From contig NZ_CAJQTX010000007.1 in NCBI RefSeq assembly GCF_907163085.1, forward strand, positions 62,001-126,000: DNA of 64,000 nucleotides, read 5' to 3'. Positions 45,780 through 58,229 of this stretch are shown here, one piece after another. The position numbers and the translations under genes were made by a program. A model generated the notes under the pieces. It worked only from the letters and a program-made list of their open reading frames with translations. It was not told the origin of the DNA and did no database searches. Position 1 is the first letter of the stretch, and each line of letters opens with the position of its first letter. This DNA is from Candidatus Accumulibacter sp. ACC003 (GTDB lineage Bacteria; Pseudomonadota; Gammaproteobacteria; Burkholderiales; Rhodocyclaceae).

Positions 45780-46015
45780 TGCCTGCCTTCTGTGAGATTT
45801 GTTGGACTGTGAAACCGTGTCGCTGCCGCTAGCGGCCGATGGTTGGCGGCAACGCGGCTGCCATGATGCCATTCCGCGCTGGCGCGAGGGCGCAGGTGAG
45901 CGATAATCATCCCCCCGTCGGGGCCGCGTTGGTCGCCTTCGGCCTGCTCGCCACCCTCGCCGCTCGACGACACCGAGCCGGGGCCTCGGGCCCGGCGCAA
46001 ACGAACTATTATTCA

Positions 46016-46954
46016 ATGGAGCCGTGCTTGAATATTATTGCTCGCTTGCTGCTACTCATTTTGCTCAATGGGTGTTCGACAGGTCGGTATTACAAAGCCG
46101 CAGAACAAGGCCCGCCCCCACAAATCGGGCAGAAGGATATTTCCCTGGTGCTTGCCCGTGCTGTGGTCAAAGCATGCGAAACGCCGCATGCAAACCTGGA
46201 TCCGTCCAATATAAATACCGTTTTCGTGCATCCGGGGATGCTGTGGTTCGACTCCGATTGCGGCAAAAGCATCACCGTCGACAGCGCCAGGATATTAATA
46301 AAGAATGGCTACGCAAATAATTTTTACGAGCTGTGCGACCGCAATCCGGAAAAAATTGGCGAGCTGATGCAGAAAGACCCGGGCACACGCTTCATTGGTC
46401 TGCACTACAGCTTGGGCGGTCAACCAGCACTCGTAGCCGCTACCTTGGCGAGCGTCGCGCAGACCAGGCGCGAGGGCGCAAAAGATTTTGTTTACTATCC
46501 TGTTCTCGTCGATCCTTTCGATATCGAGCAATTCAATACGCTGCTCGACCTGGATGTGGCTCATCTCGGCCAGGTGTTTATCGTTCTGTCCGCCGAGTAC
46601 TCGCTCCTGAGGCCGAATGTCAGCGGGCTTCGGGAAGAGATCCTCGGCAGCCCGAAAGTTCATCTGATTTATGCCGAAGATTTCGGCGAGACCTGGGGCC
46701 ACTTCGACGAATTGGCAAGTGTCGTTGAAGAAGACGCCGTTTCGAGATTTCGTGACATCTTTTTTCTTATTGCCGAGGCCGTTGTAAATGGCTACTCGGC
46801 GATCGAATTCGAGGGGCGTCTGGCGCTGCTCAAGATAAGGTATGCCGGCGAAGACTCGCGAAGAGTCAATGTTGACTGGCTACGATTGGCCGAGAAACTT
46901 CCCTGCGCGCAAGGTGCCGCGCCGATTGTCGCCGGCCAATCGCGAACGCCATGA
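46016..46954 (+). CDS. Lipoprotein with possible serine-hydrolase motif, AT-richer than neighbours
   Basis: A 312-residue protein with a lipoprotein signal (IARLLLLILLNGC). I chose ATG 46016 because it gives the lipobox; the frame is open to 45839. The middle contains FIGLHYSLGGQPALVAATLA, resembling a nucleophile elbow (HYSLGG), after a Cys-containing region with HPGMLWFDSDCGKS. A DPFDIEQFNTLLDLDVAHLG stretch and EDFGETWGHFDE could hold the Asp and His. I do not recognise the family. Codons here use more A and T than nearby genes, suggesting later acquisition. Confidence 0.65.
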   Translation: MEPCLNIIARLLLLILLNGCSTGRYYKAAEQGPPPQIGQKDISLVLARAVVKACETPHANLDPSNINTVFVHPGMLWFDSDCGKSITVDSARILIKNGYANNFYELCDRNPEKIGELMQKDPGTRFIGLHYSLGGQPALVAATLASVAQTRREGAKDFVYYPVLVDPFDIEQFNTLLDLDVAHLGQVFIVLSAEYSLLRPNVSGLREEILGSPKVHLIYAEDFGETWGHFDELASVVEEDAVSRFRDIFFLIAEAVVNGYSAIEFEGRLALLKIRYAGEDSRRVNVDWLRLAEKLPCAQGAAPIVAGQSRTP

Positions 46955-51600: not shown

Positions 51601-52737
51601 CTAGAGGCGGCGACCGAGGGCGGTTAGATAGGGCAGGGCGATGAACGGCCAGAGACTGGCGACCCAGCGCGTCAAGCCATTGAAGTTGAGGAAGTGCCCT
51701 TGCTGCCAGGTCGCCAGCGCCGCTGCCGAGTAGGGGTTCGGTGGCGTCAGATTGACCAGCGCGGTGCCGGCCATCAGCGCCACGCCAGCCAGGGCGATGC
51801 GCAGCGCAGCCGGCAGCAGCAGGAGCAGCGACAGCAGCACGCCACCGATCAGCAGGCCGAGCCGCGCTCCCGGCGTCAACCAGGCCAGCGCGTCCTGCGG
51901 CGCCACCAGGACGGCGGCGGCGAGCGTTCTGATGGCCAGCGCCAGGACGAAAAGAAAGATCAGCAGCAGGTGCGGATACGTCCGGTCGGTCATCAGCGAG
52001 CGCGCAAAGAGGCCGATGACGATGGTGTTGCAGGCAATCACTCCGGTTTCGATCATGAAGAAGGCCGGCGCGGCGTAGGGCAAGGGCGGCGTCAGACCGA
52101 GGATCTGGCGCAGGTCGCCGACGCCGAACAGCAGCGTTTCCGGCGACAGTTGCGTCAGCAGCCACATGCCGATCAGGACCAGCCCGAGTTCGGCTTGGGC
52201 GATCGGCGCCAGCCAGTTTTGCTGGAGCTGCGCGAGGCGGCGAAAGATGGCCTTGCCAATCCAGACCGCGATCACCGCGCCGATCGCGCTGCCGGCGGCA
52301 TTGCACGCCAGATCGAGATTCGACGGCACGCGCGCCGGCAGCCAGTTCTGCAGGCATTCCATGCTGAGGCTCAGCACGCTGCCGAGCGCCAGCGCGGCCA
52401 ACGCCGCCGACCAGCGGCCGGGCAAGCTGTGCAGTGCCAGCGTCAGCAGGAAGCCCAGCGGCACGTAGGCGATGACGTTGACCGAGAGGTCGAAAGCCGT
52501 CCAGTAGCGTGGCCAGGCGGCACCGAGAAACTCCAGCGGCGAGATGCCGAGGTCGCGCCAGTTGATGAAAGGGTAGAGGCTGGCGTAGCCGATCAGCACG
52601 ACGTACGCCAGCGCCAGATAGAGCGGCAGCCGCGTCGCTTGCGCGCGCGCCGGTGGCGCGGAGTTGTCGTCCGGTTCGGCTTCCGCGTCCGGCTCGGCGT
52701 CCGGCATCGGCGGGGTGGGCGGGGGGGCATGTTCCAT
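51601..52737 (-). CDS. VanZ-family membrane protein
   Basis: A 378-residue protein. After an acidic Pro-rich N-terminus it has a VanZ-like region (YASLYPFINWRDLGISPLEF; DLSVNVIAYVPLGFLLTLAL; LSLSMECLQNWLPARVPSNL; DLACNAAGSAIGAVIAV). A second half with about six more helices runs to the C-terminus. The motif N-x-x-x-Y-x-P-x-G-F and the E..Q....R..S..D.. series are the VanZ hallmarks. The role outside teicoplanin resistance is unknown. It is convergent with the DnaJ-like gene. Confidence 0.88.
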   Translation of the reverse strand: MEHAPPPTPPMPDAEPDAEAEPDDNSAPPARAQATRLPLYLALAYVVLIGYASLYPFINWRDLGISPLEFLGAAWPRYWTAFDLSVNVIAYVPLGFLLTLALHSLPGRWSAALAALALGSVLSLSMECLQNWLPARVPSNLDLACNAAGSAIGAVIAVWIGKAIFRRLAQLQQNWLAPIAQAELGLVLIGMWLLTQLSPETLLFGVGDLRQILGLTPPLPYAAPAFFMIETGVIACNTIVIGLFARSLMTDRTYPHLLLIFLFVLALAIRTLAAAVLVAPQDALAWLTPGARLGLLIGGVLLSLLLLLPAALRIALAGVALMAGTALVNLTPPNPYSAAALATWQQGHFLNFNGLTRWVASLWPFIALPYLTALGRRL

Positions 52738-53173: not shown

Positions 53174-54277
53174 GTGTCAGTGGTGGTGCCTATGGTCGTG
53201 CCTGATCTTCTGTTCGTTTGCGCGCCAGGTTTTCTGGTTGCCGCCGCTGGCTTGCTCGCCGGCTTGGTCTTTCTCGCCGGCCTGTGTCTGCCGCGTGTAC
53301 AGCGCGCCGGTGCGGTGACGCTGATTCTGCCGCTGACCGGCGAAGCCGCAGGTCTCGCTGCCTTGCTGCGGGCGCTCGCCGCGCAAAGCCTGGCGCCGCG
53401 GCGCCTGCTGATCTGCCTGGAGGGCACCGACGATCCGGCGTACGCCGCCGCGGCTCGGCTGGCTGCCGAGACGCGCCTGCCGGTCGAGCTGGTGATTGCC
53501 GGCCAGGCGACGCACTGCGCGCAGAAGTGCCGCAACCAGATCGCCGGCCTGCAGCGCGTCGACGCGGACGATGAGGTCGTGGTCCTGCTCGACGCCGACA
53601 TCGTGCCGCCGCGCTGGTGGTTGTCGGCGCTGGCTTCGCCGATACTCGACGGTAGCGCCGACGTGGTCAGTGGCTATCGCTGGCCGATCATAGAACAGCA
53701 CCAGCTAGCCGCGCACCTGGTGGCGGCGATCGATCGCGGCATCGCCCTGCTGCCGCGCCTGGCGGCTTTTCAGGTCACCTGGGGTGGCTCGCTGGCCTTG
53801 TCGCCGGCAGCCATCGAAAAGCTGGCAACCGAGCGAATCCTGGCCAACACGCTGTCCGACGACTGTACGATCGGCAAGCAGGCGGCAGCGCTGGGCTTGC
53901 GCGTTCTGACCCGACGCGCGCTGTTGGTGCCGACGCCGGCGACCGGTGAACTGGCCGCGTTGTGGCGTTTCGGGCGCCGACAATACCAGATCATCCGTGT
54001 CTATCGCCCCGGCCTGTGGTGGCTGGCGCTCCTGGCAGTGAGCGCGCGCCTGGCGACCTGGGGAGTCCTGCTGGCCAACCTGGAACACGGCTGGGCACGC
54101 CTGGCGATCGCTGTCCTGCTCGCGGCAGCGCTGCTGGCCGTACTGCAGCAGGCGCTGGTCGGGCGTCGCCTGGGTTTTTCCGAGCCCTTCGCCGTCAGCC
54201 TGACGCAGGGCGCACTGTGCCTCTTCAAGCCCTTGGTCGACGTTTTTTCACTGGAGTCTGGTGGTGGCCGCCGGTGA
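53174..54277 (+). CDS. Family 2 glycosyltransferase (ceramide glucosyltransferase/HpnI-like)
   Basis: A 367-residue membrane enzyme. TM1 (FLVAAAGLLAGLVFLAGLCL) is followed by a GT2 catalytic domain: DADIVPPRWWL with D140/D142 as the metal-binding DxD, HCAQKCRNQIAGL as in ceramide glucosyltransferase-type enzymes, WGGSLALSP, and a (Q/R)xxR-type element RRQYQIIRVYRP. Two or three C-terminal helices follow. It probably transfers a sugar from a nucleotide sugar to a lipid. GTG 53174 is the first start; GTG and ATG codons up to 53192 are alternatives. It precedes the P450-methyltransferase gene by 78 bp. Confidence 0.8.
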   Translation: MSVVVPMVVPDLLFVCAPGFLVAAAGLLAGLVFLAGLCLPRVQRAGAVTLILPLTGEAAGLAALLRALAAQSLAPRRLLICLEGTDDPAYAAAARLAAETRLPVELVIAGQATHCAQKCRNQIAGLQRVDADDEVVVLLDADIVPPRWWLSALASPILDGSADVVSGYRWPIIEQHQLAAHLVAAIDRGIALLPRLAAFQVTWGGSLALSPAAIEKLATERILANTLSDDCTIGKQAAALGLRVLTRRALLVPTPATGELAALWRFGRRQYQIIRVYRPGLWWLALLAVSARLATWGVLLANLEHGWARLAIAVLLAAALLAVLQQALVGRRLGFSEPFAVSLTQGALCLFKPLVDVFSLESGGGRR

Positions 54278-54355
54278 CGCGCGCTCGATTCGCTGGGGCC
54301 ACCTCACTTACCGCGTTTCCGGACCGGCGCAGATCGCCGTGACGACGCGCACGCC

Positions 54356-56809
54356 ATGGCGCTGATTCTGTCGCTGGCCGGCGGCCTGGCTGGTCGCTCG
54401 CGCTTCCTGACGCGCCTCGCCGGGCGCCTGGTGGCGCGCCAGTTGCGTCGGCTCAAGGGCAAGCCGGTCGAGCGGCAATTGCTGGTCTACGAGTTGCCGG
54501 CAACGCAACTGGCCCTGGCCAACGACCTGCGTGTAGTCGATACCATCCTCAGTGATCGCGCCGGTACTTTTCCGAAGGCGGCGGCGCTCGAGCGCCTGCT
54601 CAGACCCCTGGTCGGTAGCGGTGTTTTTGGCCAGCCCGGCGGCGACGCAGTCAAACAGGCGCGGCGGATCTATGTGCGGGCACTGACGCGGATCCCCGTG
54701 CAGCGCGTCGCGGCGGTGGCCGGCGAATTGACGCGCGCCTACCTCGCCGACTGGCAGCGCGCGGGCCACCCGGTGGCGATCCCCAGCGAAATGTCACGCC
54801 TGACGATCGACATCGTCAGCGTCGCCAGCCTCGGCGCCCGCTTCACCGTCGCCGAGGGGCAGCGCTTCGTCGAGTTGTTCTTCGAGTATCACCGGCGCGT
54901 AAACCCGGTCCTGCTGCTGCTCGCTAGCCAGGATGCGGCCGCGCAGGACGCGCTGGTCGAGCGGATGGGGCTGGTGGCGATCGGCGCCGAGATGCGCGAG
55001 CTGATCCGCCAACGCTTCGTCGCACCGCTGCTCGGCGCTGCCGCCGACGCGCCGCAGGCGCCGTTTGCGGCGGCCTTGCTGGAAGCCGCCGACGCGGGCG
55101 CGCTGCCTGGTCTGTCGTCGGCAGCCAATGCGGCGCGGGCGCGCAGCCGGGAAACGGCGATGCTCGACGAAATCGCGGTGATGCTGCTCGCCGGCCACGA
55201 GACGACGGCGTCGGTCCTCAGCTGGTTGTTGTGGGAGTTGGCTGACGCGCCGACCGAGCAGGATGAGGTGGCGGCGCTGATCGCCACGCCGCCCACCGCC
55301 AGCGGCGACGACGGCGTGGCGCCCGAGCAGACCGTGACCCGGCGTCTCGGCGCACTGATCCAGGAGGCGCTACGCCTCTACCCGCCGATCGCTTTCCTGC
55401 TGCGTGAAGCGACCGAAGCGGTGAGCTTTCGCCAACGACCGATTTGCGCGGGCGGCTTCGTCGTCGTCTCGCCATGGACGATACAGCGCCACCGGGCGCT
55501 ATGGCCGCAGCCCGATCACTTCGATCCGCAGCGCTGGCTGGCCGCCGAGCCGCCGGCAGCGATGGCCGACCGTCTGGCGATGATCCCCTTTGGCTACGGC
55601 CCACGAGTGTGCCCCGGCAAGCGCTTCGCCGAGGCCGAGATGCACGCCATTCTCGGCGAGTTGCTCGGCGCCTGCCGCTTTGCGCGTGGCCGCGGTCGCA
55701 CGCCGCAGCCGCTGGGCAGCCTCACGTCGCGACCCGATTACGACTTTCGCCTGCGCATCACGCCGCGGCGTGCGCCGGTGGCACTGCCGTCGTCGGCGAG
55801 CGCGGCGTGTCCACCGCTGCCCCCGTGTCCGATCACCGGCAGGCCGGCGCGCCGCCGCGTGCACGGCGTGTCGACCCCGGCGCTGCTGGCGATGTGGCGC
55901 GCCGCCGGCGCCGGCGACCTCGCCCACCTCTTTCCCGATGCGCCGCAGGTGGTGCTCTACGAGTCGGATACCGGGCTGTACTTTTTCTCGCCACGGCGTG
56001 CTGGCGACGCCGATTTCTACCAGCGCTTCTATGCGACGCACGCCGCGCACGCGACGCTCAGCGCAGGTTCCGAAGAGCGTCGCGAGTTCGTCGATGCCGC
56101 CCGCCACATTGCCGCCGGTTCGCTGGTGCTCGACGTCGGTTGTGGCAGTGGCGCCTTCCGCGAACACCTGCCGCAGAGCACCTATTGCGGGCTCGACCCC
56201 TTTGCCGTAGCCGGAACGTTTGCCGATGTGATCAAGCAGAGCCTGTCCGAGCACGTCGACGAAGCGCGCGGCCGCTATGACGTGGTGACCGCCTTTCAGG
56301 TCATCGAACACCTCGCCGACCCGCTCGCCTTCGCCAGGCAGTTGCTTGCCCTGCTGCGTCCGGGCGGGACGCTGATCGTCTGCGCGCCGCTGCATCCGTC
56401 ACCCCTGACCGCGATTCCAAATTTCCTGATCAACGCGCCACCACACCACCTCAGCTGGTGGACCGTCGGCGCTTTTCAGGCGCTGGCGCGGGCTATCGAC
56501 GTCGAGGCGGTGGACATCGTCGAGGTGCCGGCGTCGGCGCATGGCGCCGAGGTCACCGTCAACTGGATGAGTCGCTTCTCGTGGCTGCGTGCCGGTCGCG
56601 GCGCCGACGAACGCTATTTTGCCCATCGCTGGGCTTGGCACCTCAACCTGGCGATCAGCTATCTGCTCGCTCGCCTGGCGACGCGTTGGCTGCCGCCACC
56701 CCGCGGTGGCCAGCCGTGCAGCGTCATGCTGGTCGCGCGTTCGCGTCTCGACGGTTCGCTCGACGCGGCGCAGCGGGCGGCCTTTACGCCACCGGGTCAG
56801 CAGCCCTGA
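54356..56809 (+). CDS. Cytochrome P450 - SAM methyltransferase fusion protein
   Basis: A single 817-residue frame. Residues 1 to about 455 are a P450: I-helix motif AGHETTAS (279-286; oxygen-activating Thr), ExxR at 337-340 (EALR), and heme loop FGYGPRVCPG with Cys419 as iron ligand. A linker with CPPLPPCPITG follows, then a class I methyltransferase (about 490-817) with motif I VLDVGCGSG (591-599) and VVTAFQVIEHLADPLAFARQ. Each half looks complete. It lies between a lipid-type glycosyltransferase and ugd. The P450 would hydroxylate and the methyltransferase may then methylate a lipid or glycolipid (inference). No redox partner is adjacent. The junction has no frameshift or repeat suggesting misassembly. 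Confidence 0.88.
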   Translation: MALILSLAGGLAGRSRFLTRLAGRLVARQLRRLKGKPVERQLLVYELPATQLALANDLRVVDTILSDRAGTFPKAAALERLLRPLVGSGVFGQPGGDAVKQARRIYVRALTRIPVQRVAAVAGELTRAYLADWQRAGHPVAIPSEMSRLTIDIVSVASLGARFTVAEGQRFVELFFEYHRRVNPVLLLLASQDAAAQDALVERMGLVAIGAEMRELIRQRFVAPLLGAAADAPQAPFAAALLEAADAGALPGLSSAANAARARSRETAMLDEIAVMLLAGHETTASVLSWLLWELADAPTEQDEVAALIATPPTASGDDGVAPEQTVTRRLGALIQEALRLYPPIAFLLREATEAVSFRQRPICAGGFVVVSPWTIQRHRALWPQPDHFDPQRWLAAEPPAAMADRLAMIPFGYGPRVCPGKRFAEAEMHAILGELLGACRFARGRGRTPQPLGSLTSRPDYDFRLRITPRRAPVALPSSASAACPPLPPCPITGRPARRRVHGVSTPALLAMWRAAGAGDLAHLFPDAPQVVLYESDTGLYFFSPRRAGDADFYQRFYATHAAHATLSAGSEERREFVDAARHIAAGSLVLDVGCGSGAFREHLPQSTYCGLDPFAVAGTFADVIKQSLSEHVDEARGRYDVVTAFQVIEHLADPLAFARQLLALLRPGGTLIVCAPLHPSPLTAIPNFLINAPPHHLSWWTVGAFQALARAIDVEAVDIVEVPASAHGAEVTVNWMSRFSWLRAGRGADERYFAHRWAWHLNLAISYLLARLATRWLPPPRGGQPCSVMLVARSRLDGSLDAAQRAAFTPPGQQP

Positions 56810-56906
56810 GTCGCTGAACGAGCGGCGATTCGGCTGTCCGGATCCTTGCGAACCCGTGCTATTTGCGCACTTGCTTCATGATTCGTCGCACCAGGAGATT
56901 GTTTAA

Positions 56907-58229
56907 ATGAAAGTCACCGTTATCGGCACCGGTTACGTCGGTCTCGTTTCAGGAACGTGTCTGGCCGACGTTGGCAACGACGTCCTTTGTCTCGATGTGG
57001 ACGTCGAGAAGATTCGTATTCTGCAGGCCGGCGGCATCCCGATTTTCGAGCCTGGCCTCGAGGCGATGGTCAGGATAAACGTCGAAGCCGGCCGGCTGCG
57101 CTTCACCACCGACGTCGAAGACGCCGTCGCGCATGGCCTGCTGCAGTTCATCGCCGTCGGCACGCCGCCCGATGAAGATGGTTCGGCCGACCTGCAGTAC
57201 GTCCTGGCGGCGGCGCGCAAGGTCGGCCAGTTCATGAGCGAATACAAGGTGGTGGTCGACAAATCGACGGTGCCGGTGGGCACCGCCGACAAGGTGCGCG
57301 CGGCGATCGCCGAAGAACTTGCGGCGCGCGCGTCGGCGCTCGACTTTAGCGTCGTCTCCAACCCCGAGTTCCTCAAGGAGGGAGCGGCGTTGGAGGACTT
57401 CATGAAGCCCGACCGGATCGTCGTCGGTGCCGAAGACGCGCGGGCGATCGACGTGATGCGCGAACTCTACGCACCCTTCCAGCGCAACCACGATCGCTTG
57501 CTGGTGATGGACGTGCGCAGCGCCGAGCTGACCAAATACGCAGCCAACGCGATGTTGGCGACGCGTATCAGCTTCATGAACGAACTGGCAAACCTCAGCG
57601 AACGTCTGGGCGCCGATATCGAACTGGTGCGCCGAGGGATTGGCTCCGATCCGCGGATTGGCTTCGACTTTCTCTATCCCGGTGCCGGTTACGGCGGCTC
57701 GTGCTTTCCGAAAGACGTGCAGGCGCTGATTCGTACGGCGCGCGCGGCGGGCCAGGAGCTGAAGGTGCTGCAGGCCGTCGAAGACGCCAATCACGCCCAG
57801 AAAAGCGTCCTCACGCAGAAGATCGTCAAACGCCTCGGTGCCGACCTGTCGGGCAAGACCATTGCCCTGTGGGGCCTGGCGTTCAAGCCGAACACCGACG
57901 ACATGCGCGAAGCCGCGAGCCGGGTGCTGATCACCGACCTGCTGGCGCGCGGCGCGCGCGTGCGTGCTTACGACCCGGTGGCCAGCCACGAGGCACAGCG
58001 CATCTTTGCCGGTGAAACGCGAATCGCCTTCGTCAAAACACCGATGACGGCGCTGCAGGGCGCCGACGTGCTGGCCATCGTCACCGAGTGGAAGGAGTTT
58101 CGCGCGCCCGATTTCGCGGCGATCAAGGCGGCGCTCAAGACGCCGGCGATCTTCGATGGCCGCAATCTCTACGACCCGGCCGTGCCTCGCCGGGCCGGGC
58201 TCGAGTACTTTGCGATCGGCCGCTTGTAG
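56907..58229 (+). CDS. ugd: UDP-glucose 6-dehydrogenase
   Basis: A 440-residue enzyme oxidising UDP-glucose to UDP-glucuronate with two NAD+. It has the N-terminal Rossmann motif [51 protein letters not shown], and the catalytic Cys in [16 protein letters not shown]. The C-terminal domain has [23 protein letters not shown] precedes the ATG. It supplies UDP-glucuronate for surface polysaccharide or glycolipid, which fits the glycosyltransferase two genes upstream. Confidence 0.96.

Follow-up and report, generated by a model that had tools for sequence, protein, structure and literature searches.

A glycosyltransferase, P450, and methyltransferase operon found so far in some members of the genus Candidatus Accumulibacter, and a probable recent fusion of two of its genes in one genome

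Introduction

Is a cytochrome P450 that runs without a stop into a methyltransferase a new type of bacterial tailoring enzyme, or have two neighboring genes of an operon been merged in a single genome? This question is raised by a stretch of 64,000 nucleotides (the window) that belongs to a contig of the 5.39-Mb, 13-contig genome of Candidatus Accumulibacter sp. ACC003. Members of this genus are known to remove phosphate in wastewater treatment plants. An initial annotation, made from the letters of the window, took the joined frame for a hydroxylate-then-methylate enzyme that acts on a membrane lipid or glycolipid and stands in a cluster with a lipid-type GT2 glycosyltransferase (GT) and a UDP-glucose dehydrogenase (ugd). 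Here, we compare the locus with those of its relatives.

Results

The frame itself is as described, a single open reading frame of 817 residues from ATG to stop (54356-56809, plus strand) with both Pfam domains and all of the motifs named (Table 1). The p450 domain spans residues 57 to 446 (E 6.4e-42) and Methyltransf_23 spans residues 585 to 716 (E 4.4e-19; 69.2 bits, with a cut-off of 27). When the window is aligned with four relatives, the P450 motifs AGHETTAS and EALR and the heme Cys419 (FGYGPRVCPG) are identical in all five sequences, and the SAM motif VLDVGCGSG is found in all five methyltransferases. Profile match, I-helix motif, ExxR, and heme-Cys motif place the first part among the cytochromes P450 (PF00067); profile match and glycine-rich SAM motif place the second among the class I SAM methyltransferases (Methyltransf_23). 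The P450 part is 77-79% identical to the separate P450 genes of the four relatives, and the methyltransferase part is 77-81% identical to their separate methyltransferase genes. Pairwise dN/dS of the window against the four relatives is 0.187-0.197 for the P450 (0.165-0.252 among the relatives) and 0.195-0.233 for the methyltransferase (0.148-0.241 among the relatives). As judged from these ratios, purifying selection acted on both parts over most of their divergence, pairwise dN/dS being silent on the time after the fusion. At its C-terminus, the methyltransferase of the window has about 18 residues more than those of the four relatives (the last ~60 bases before 56809).

TABLE 1 Position of the operon genes, the junction, and the neighboring genes in the window
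Feature	Position	Strand	Basis
VanZ-like gene, locus marker upstream of the operon	51601..52737	-	Pfam VanZ
GT21-like glycosyltransferase, gene 1	53174..54277	+	Pfam Glyco_transf_21
Cytochrome P450 part, residues 1-471	54356..55768	+	Pfam p450; gene 2 in relatives
Junction, window-particular sequence replacing the relatives' P450 stop and methyltransferase start	55769..55822	+	Comparison with relatives
Class I SAM methyltransferase part	55823..56809	+	Methyltransf_23; gene 3 in relatives
UDP-glucose-type dehydrogenase (ugd)	56907..58229	+	TIGR03026, 449.5 bits (cut-off, 189.8)

Neither part could be assigned to a characterized enzyme. The best solved relative of the P450 in the PDB comparison is LUTEIN DEFICIENT 5 (E 1.3e-25). 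Fold and motifs are like those of the bacterial ApyO and of the albaflavenone and pentalenene oxygenases, but with 74.6-108.1 bits the P450 stays below all cut-offs of the bacterial equivalogs (525-800). Likewise, the SAM-binding core of the methyltransferase matches the structures of UbiG-type class I O-methyltransferases (E 6.7e-12), but the protein has additional N- and C-terminal regions, and the UbiG score is 37.8 bits in the window and 43.5 and 44.5 bits in two relatives, compared to an equivalog cut-off of 102.95.

The picture changes at the junction. In all four relatives of the genus with a readable junction (G009, G014, G016, and G018), P450 and methyltransferase are separate genes; the P450 has 471-480 residues and is terminated by its own TGA. 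The methyltransferase ATG follows 4 nt after this stop in another frame in G014, G016, and G018, and 9 nt after it in the same frame in G009, where one TGA alone parts the two. Hence, one of the five genomes with a readable junction, the window's own, carries the fusion. Measured between two shared conserved points, the junction is 52 nt long in the window and 32, 32, 32, and 43 nt long in the relatives, a difference of 9-20 nt, and there is no ATG in the window at the position of the relatives' methyltransferase start. With a stop-free junction in place of stop and start, genes 2 and 3 are read as one protein of 817 residues. The Cys/Pro-rich linker seen by the initial annotation turned out to be mostly the methyltransferase's own N-terminus: LPPCPITGRPARRRVHGVST, the N-terminal start of the separate methyltransferase, is invariant in the window and the four relatives, and all four relatives' proteins start within a few residues of it, which leaves about 17 window-particular residues between ITPR and PPCPITG. 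Local duplication was tried and rejected as a source of the junction sequence, which has one 20-base match downstream (score 25), a weaker one upstream, and a best match elsewhere in the genome of E 0.002.

What is conserved is a unit of three genes, encoding a GT21-like glycosyltransferase, a P450, and a methyltransferase, that is present, completely or partially, in 7 of the 28 genus genomes (window included). All four relatives holding the three genes have them in the order GT-P450-methyltransferase. G011 has the order GT-P450 on a contig that stops inside the P450, and G022 has only the methyltransferase end, at a contig start. A close GT gene occurs in 6 of the 28 genomes (window included), always ahead of the P450, and in five of five relatives the GT stop and the P450 ATG overlap by 10 nt; this tight packing in the relatives makes translational coupling likely. 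Hydroxylation followed by methylation beside a lipid-type GT is thus borne out as a gene order, but not as a conserved fusion enzyme. In G009, a second copy of the methyltransferase C-terminal end (57% identity over 47 residues; L040:12841-12981), apparently a remnant, lies 1.3 kb downstream.

Homologues were searched in 150 genomes (the window's own, 27 genus-mates, and 122 from outside the genus), with at most six candidates per genome being scored. Among these candidates, both parts had close homologues in G009, G014, G016, and G018, and close homologues were confined to the genus; the best match in the 122 genomes outside it had an E value of 3.5e-41 at 31% identity. The P450 profile matched at E<=1e-35 in four of 369 genomes sampled from across the class, with 1.3e-285 for the window and 2.9e-44 to 6.0e-38 for the other three. 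A distant P450 match was present in 12 of 20 stretches examined (eleven of 17-19 kb and one of 7.4 kb), and none of these 12 stretches matched the GT or the methyltransferase at E<=1e-4; the GT search in whole genomes was limited to the genus. Judged from these searches, the operon has so far turned up only in some members of Candidatus Accumulibacter. Plasmid copies were also considered and rejected: 23 of 72,556 records match at E<=1e-20, and none of them covers 80% of the query.

The glycosyltransferase encoded by gene 1 belongs to Glyco_transf_21 (40.4 bits in the window and 49.4 bits in a relative; gathering cut-off, 21.7) and has orthologues of 69-78% identity. The lipid-type GT2 neighbor of the initial annotation therefore holds as a GT21/GT2-like enzyme by Pfam, but it is not intact in the window: near the 3' end, the gene leaves the frame of five of five relatives, and a short tail takes the place of about 38 C-terminal residues that all five possess and that the window encodes only in a different frame. 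The break sits at a single-base run that is longer than in any of the five relatives and would be either an assembly error or a real, recent lesion. Being in the same operon as the fusion, it suggests a nearby assembly error or decay of the operon in this genome. The enzyme is GT21-type and matches HpnI, the bacteriohopanetetrol glucosamine glycosyltransferase, over most of its length (residues 5-379 of 389 in the GT of a relative), but unlike in HpnI systems, the TIGR03472 scores are far below the equivalog cut-off of 310 (63.4 bits in the window and 74.4 bits in a relative), and a squalene-hopene cyclase match is missing (see below). No solved GT relative was found by profile at E<=0.1.

The gene downstream is, much as annotated, a nucleotide-sugar dehydrogenase of the UDP-glucose type, but it does not form a cluster with the operon, since ugd adjoins the operon only in the window and in none of the relatives examined; as an operon partner, it is ruled out. 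In the six relatives with operon parts, ugd is either on another contig (G011, G016, and G022, at E<=1e-100) or without a match at this threshold (G009, G014, and G018); the genomes of G018 and G011 are 83% and 88% complete. Downstream (3') of the methyltransferase, no ugd match was found in 7.4 kb of G009, 15.4 kb of G016, 15.0 kb of G014, and 11.5 kb of G022; the contig ends 0.8 kb after the methyltransferase in G018. With the fusion in the window only and ugd elsewhere or without a match, the order GT2-fusion-ugd is not conserved. The initial annotation had named two findings that would speak against it, homologues encoded as two genes with a stop missed here by error, or a cluster that is not conserved. 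Two genes were found in four of four relatives, and no cluster with ugd was found in the relatives examined; a stop missed by error appears unlikely (see below).

Discussion

In sum, our data point toward a three-gene tailoring operon of which genes 2 and 3 have probably become fused by a recent, lineage-specific loss of the stop in this genome. The longer, stop-free sequence would have taken the place of the P450 stop and of the start of the methyltransferase, giving rise to one protein. As all four relatives have two genes, the most parsimonious view is that the fusion arose on the branch of the window. The fusion would bring no new chemistry, but it would fix a 1:1 ratio of the two enzymes.

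The claim that no enzyme of this architecture had been described does not hold in general. LabdC of the fungus Talaromyces, encoded in a labdane diterpene cluster, is described as a dual-domain P450-methyltransferase and linked to a methylation that is proposed for labdane synthesis (PMC10744899). By that description, LabdC is like the protein of the window in having a P450 and a methyltransferase domain on one chain, a likeness of domains rather than of aligned sequences; it differs in being fungal and from a terpene cluster, and the fusion of the window is absent from the four relatives with a readable junction. With LabdC in print, the architecture is already known in fungi, and the fusion is less novel. 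No bacterial P450-methyltransferase fusion was found in the literature searched, which is not proof of absence, and no literature joining a P450 with HpnI and a glycosyltransferase was found either. P450 BM3 and other natural fusions of a P450 to its redox partner also combine a P450 with a second enzyme on one chain (PMC7261786), but the partner in the window is a methyltransferase and not an electron donor, and it is fused in one genome only. The claim of a new architecture therefore shrinks to a genus-restricted GT21/P450/methyltransferase operon and the merger of two of its genes in a single genome. A genuine fusion would have to be very young, and it could be compared directly with the unfused genes of the relatives.

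Could the species have two genes after all? Consensus errors or a local misassembly may have removed the stop and the start, and the frame break in the GT gene, 1.5 kb upstream, would then be a second error. Overlong single-base runs like the one at this break are a common error pattern of long reads, and 13 contigs for 5.39 Mb suggest a long-read assembly. Furthermore, where both genes lie in one frame, as in G009, a single wrong base call (a substitution) could erase the stop between them. We nevertheless consider such an artefact unlikely. In all three forward frames, the stops on either side of the junction come no closer than 55581 and 56208, and hence a single insertion or deletion restores no stop near the junction and is ruled out as the sole cause of a missed stop, substitutions lying outside this frame test; both the greater length of the junction and the missing ATG of the methyltransferase start also argue for a real difference. 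A second alternative accepts the fusion and sees in it a selected bifunctional enzyme that passes a hydroxylated intermediate from the P450 to the methyltransferase. The motifs kept in both parts, the dN/dS of about 0.2 against the relatives, the adjacency of the two genes before the fusion, and the fungal LabdC are consistent with it. Yet the fusion is restricted to one of five genomes, only about 17 residues are new, and the predicted structure (mean pLDDT of 42.1) is too poor to judge the packing of the two parts, so that selection for a bifunctional enzyme appears quite doubtful. In the most far-reaching version, selection would have fixed a working bacterial P450-methyltransferase in this species of Accumulibacter, and the enzyme would hydroxylate and immediately methylate a glycosylated membrane lipid whose type is as yet undescribed in polyphosphate-accumulating bacteria; we regard this version as very improbable.

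What, then, may the operon of three genes make? Both GT21-type enzymes and HpnI glycosylate lipid acceptors, and the product is therefore most likely a membrane-associated molecule that has been glycosylated, hydroxylated, and methylated. The GT would add a sugar to a membrane-associated acceptor, the P450 would hydroxylate the acceptor or its precursor, and the methyltransferase would cap the hydroxyl or another nucleophile. It is the GT21-type assignment and the weak similarity to HpnI, and these only, that suggest a lipid. A hopanoid is an unlikely acceptor: SQHop_cyclase_N (PF13249) was found in none of the 28 genus genomes, a weakly controlled negative, as just 1 of 14 control genomes gave a match, and SQHop_cyclase_C (PF13243) was not found in the window's own genome, the only one searched besides the controls (2 of 14 matched). 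Squalene/phytoene synthase genes are present in 27 of the 28 genus genomes, and it is imaginable that another isoprenoid is the acceptor. Alternatively, the operon might act on a cell-surface glycan or a secreted metabolite and not on a membrane lipid. This alternative would fit the N-terminal extension of the methyltransferase, which we take to resemble those of methyltransferases from surface-polysaccharide loci, and also the operon-free G001, in which two GT2 genes and a different methyltransferase occupy the position of the operon. It is at odds with the GT21-like nature of the glycosyltransferase and the long match to HpnI, whose score is itself far under the cut-off, and we regard a glycan or secreted metabolite as possible but the less probable target.

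The operon loci have the DnaJ/VanZ side in common, either directly or across an insert. VanZ is found with strong matches (E 1.5e-163 or lower) in 27 of the 28 genus genomes and with a weak one in G022, and it directly adjoins the operon in G014, G016, and G011. The same place was examined in 8 of the 21 operon-free genus genomes, G001 among them (14-16.5 kb each), and in none of the 8 was a GT, P450, or methyltransferase match passing the filters found. Downstream of the methyltransferase, a 4Fe-4S protein and an AMP-ligase/acyltransferase are encoded in G009, G014, and G022, preceded by a nitroreductase-family gene in G009 and G014; an N6 DNA methylase follows in G018, and G016 has a weak AAA match under the cut-off (Pfam for the proteins of G014, G018, and G016; similarity for the others).

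VanZ and the operon are separated by a TIR gene and a WD40-repeat gene in two genomes, G009 (by similarity) and G018 (by Pfam). In G018, the TIR protein stands beside an nSTAND1-WD40 protein next to VanZ (L041:8242-14490), and the TIR and a WD40 piece are also matched in L040 (G009), L068 (G012), and L074 (G004). By its domains, this variable island may carry a defence system. A further gene of changing position encodes a protein without a Pfam match at 46034-46954 of the window (within the open reading frame 45839-46954), a relative of which directly follows the methyltransferase on the opposite strand in G009 (L040:11700-12638) and in G018 is found upstream of DnaJ, at a distance of about 5 kb.
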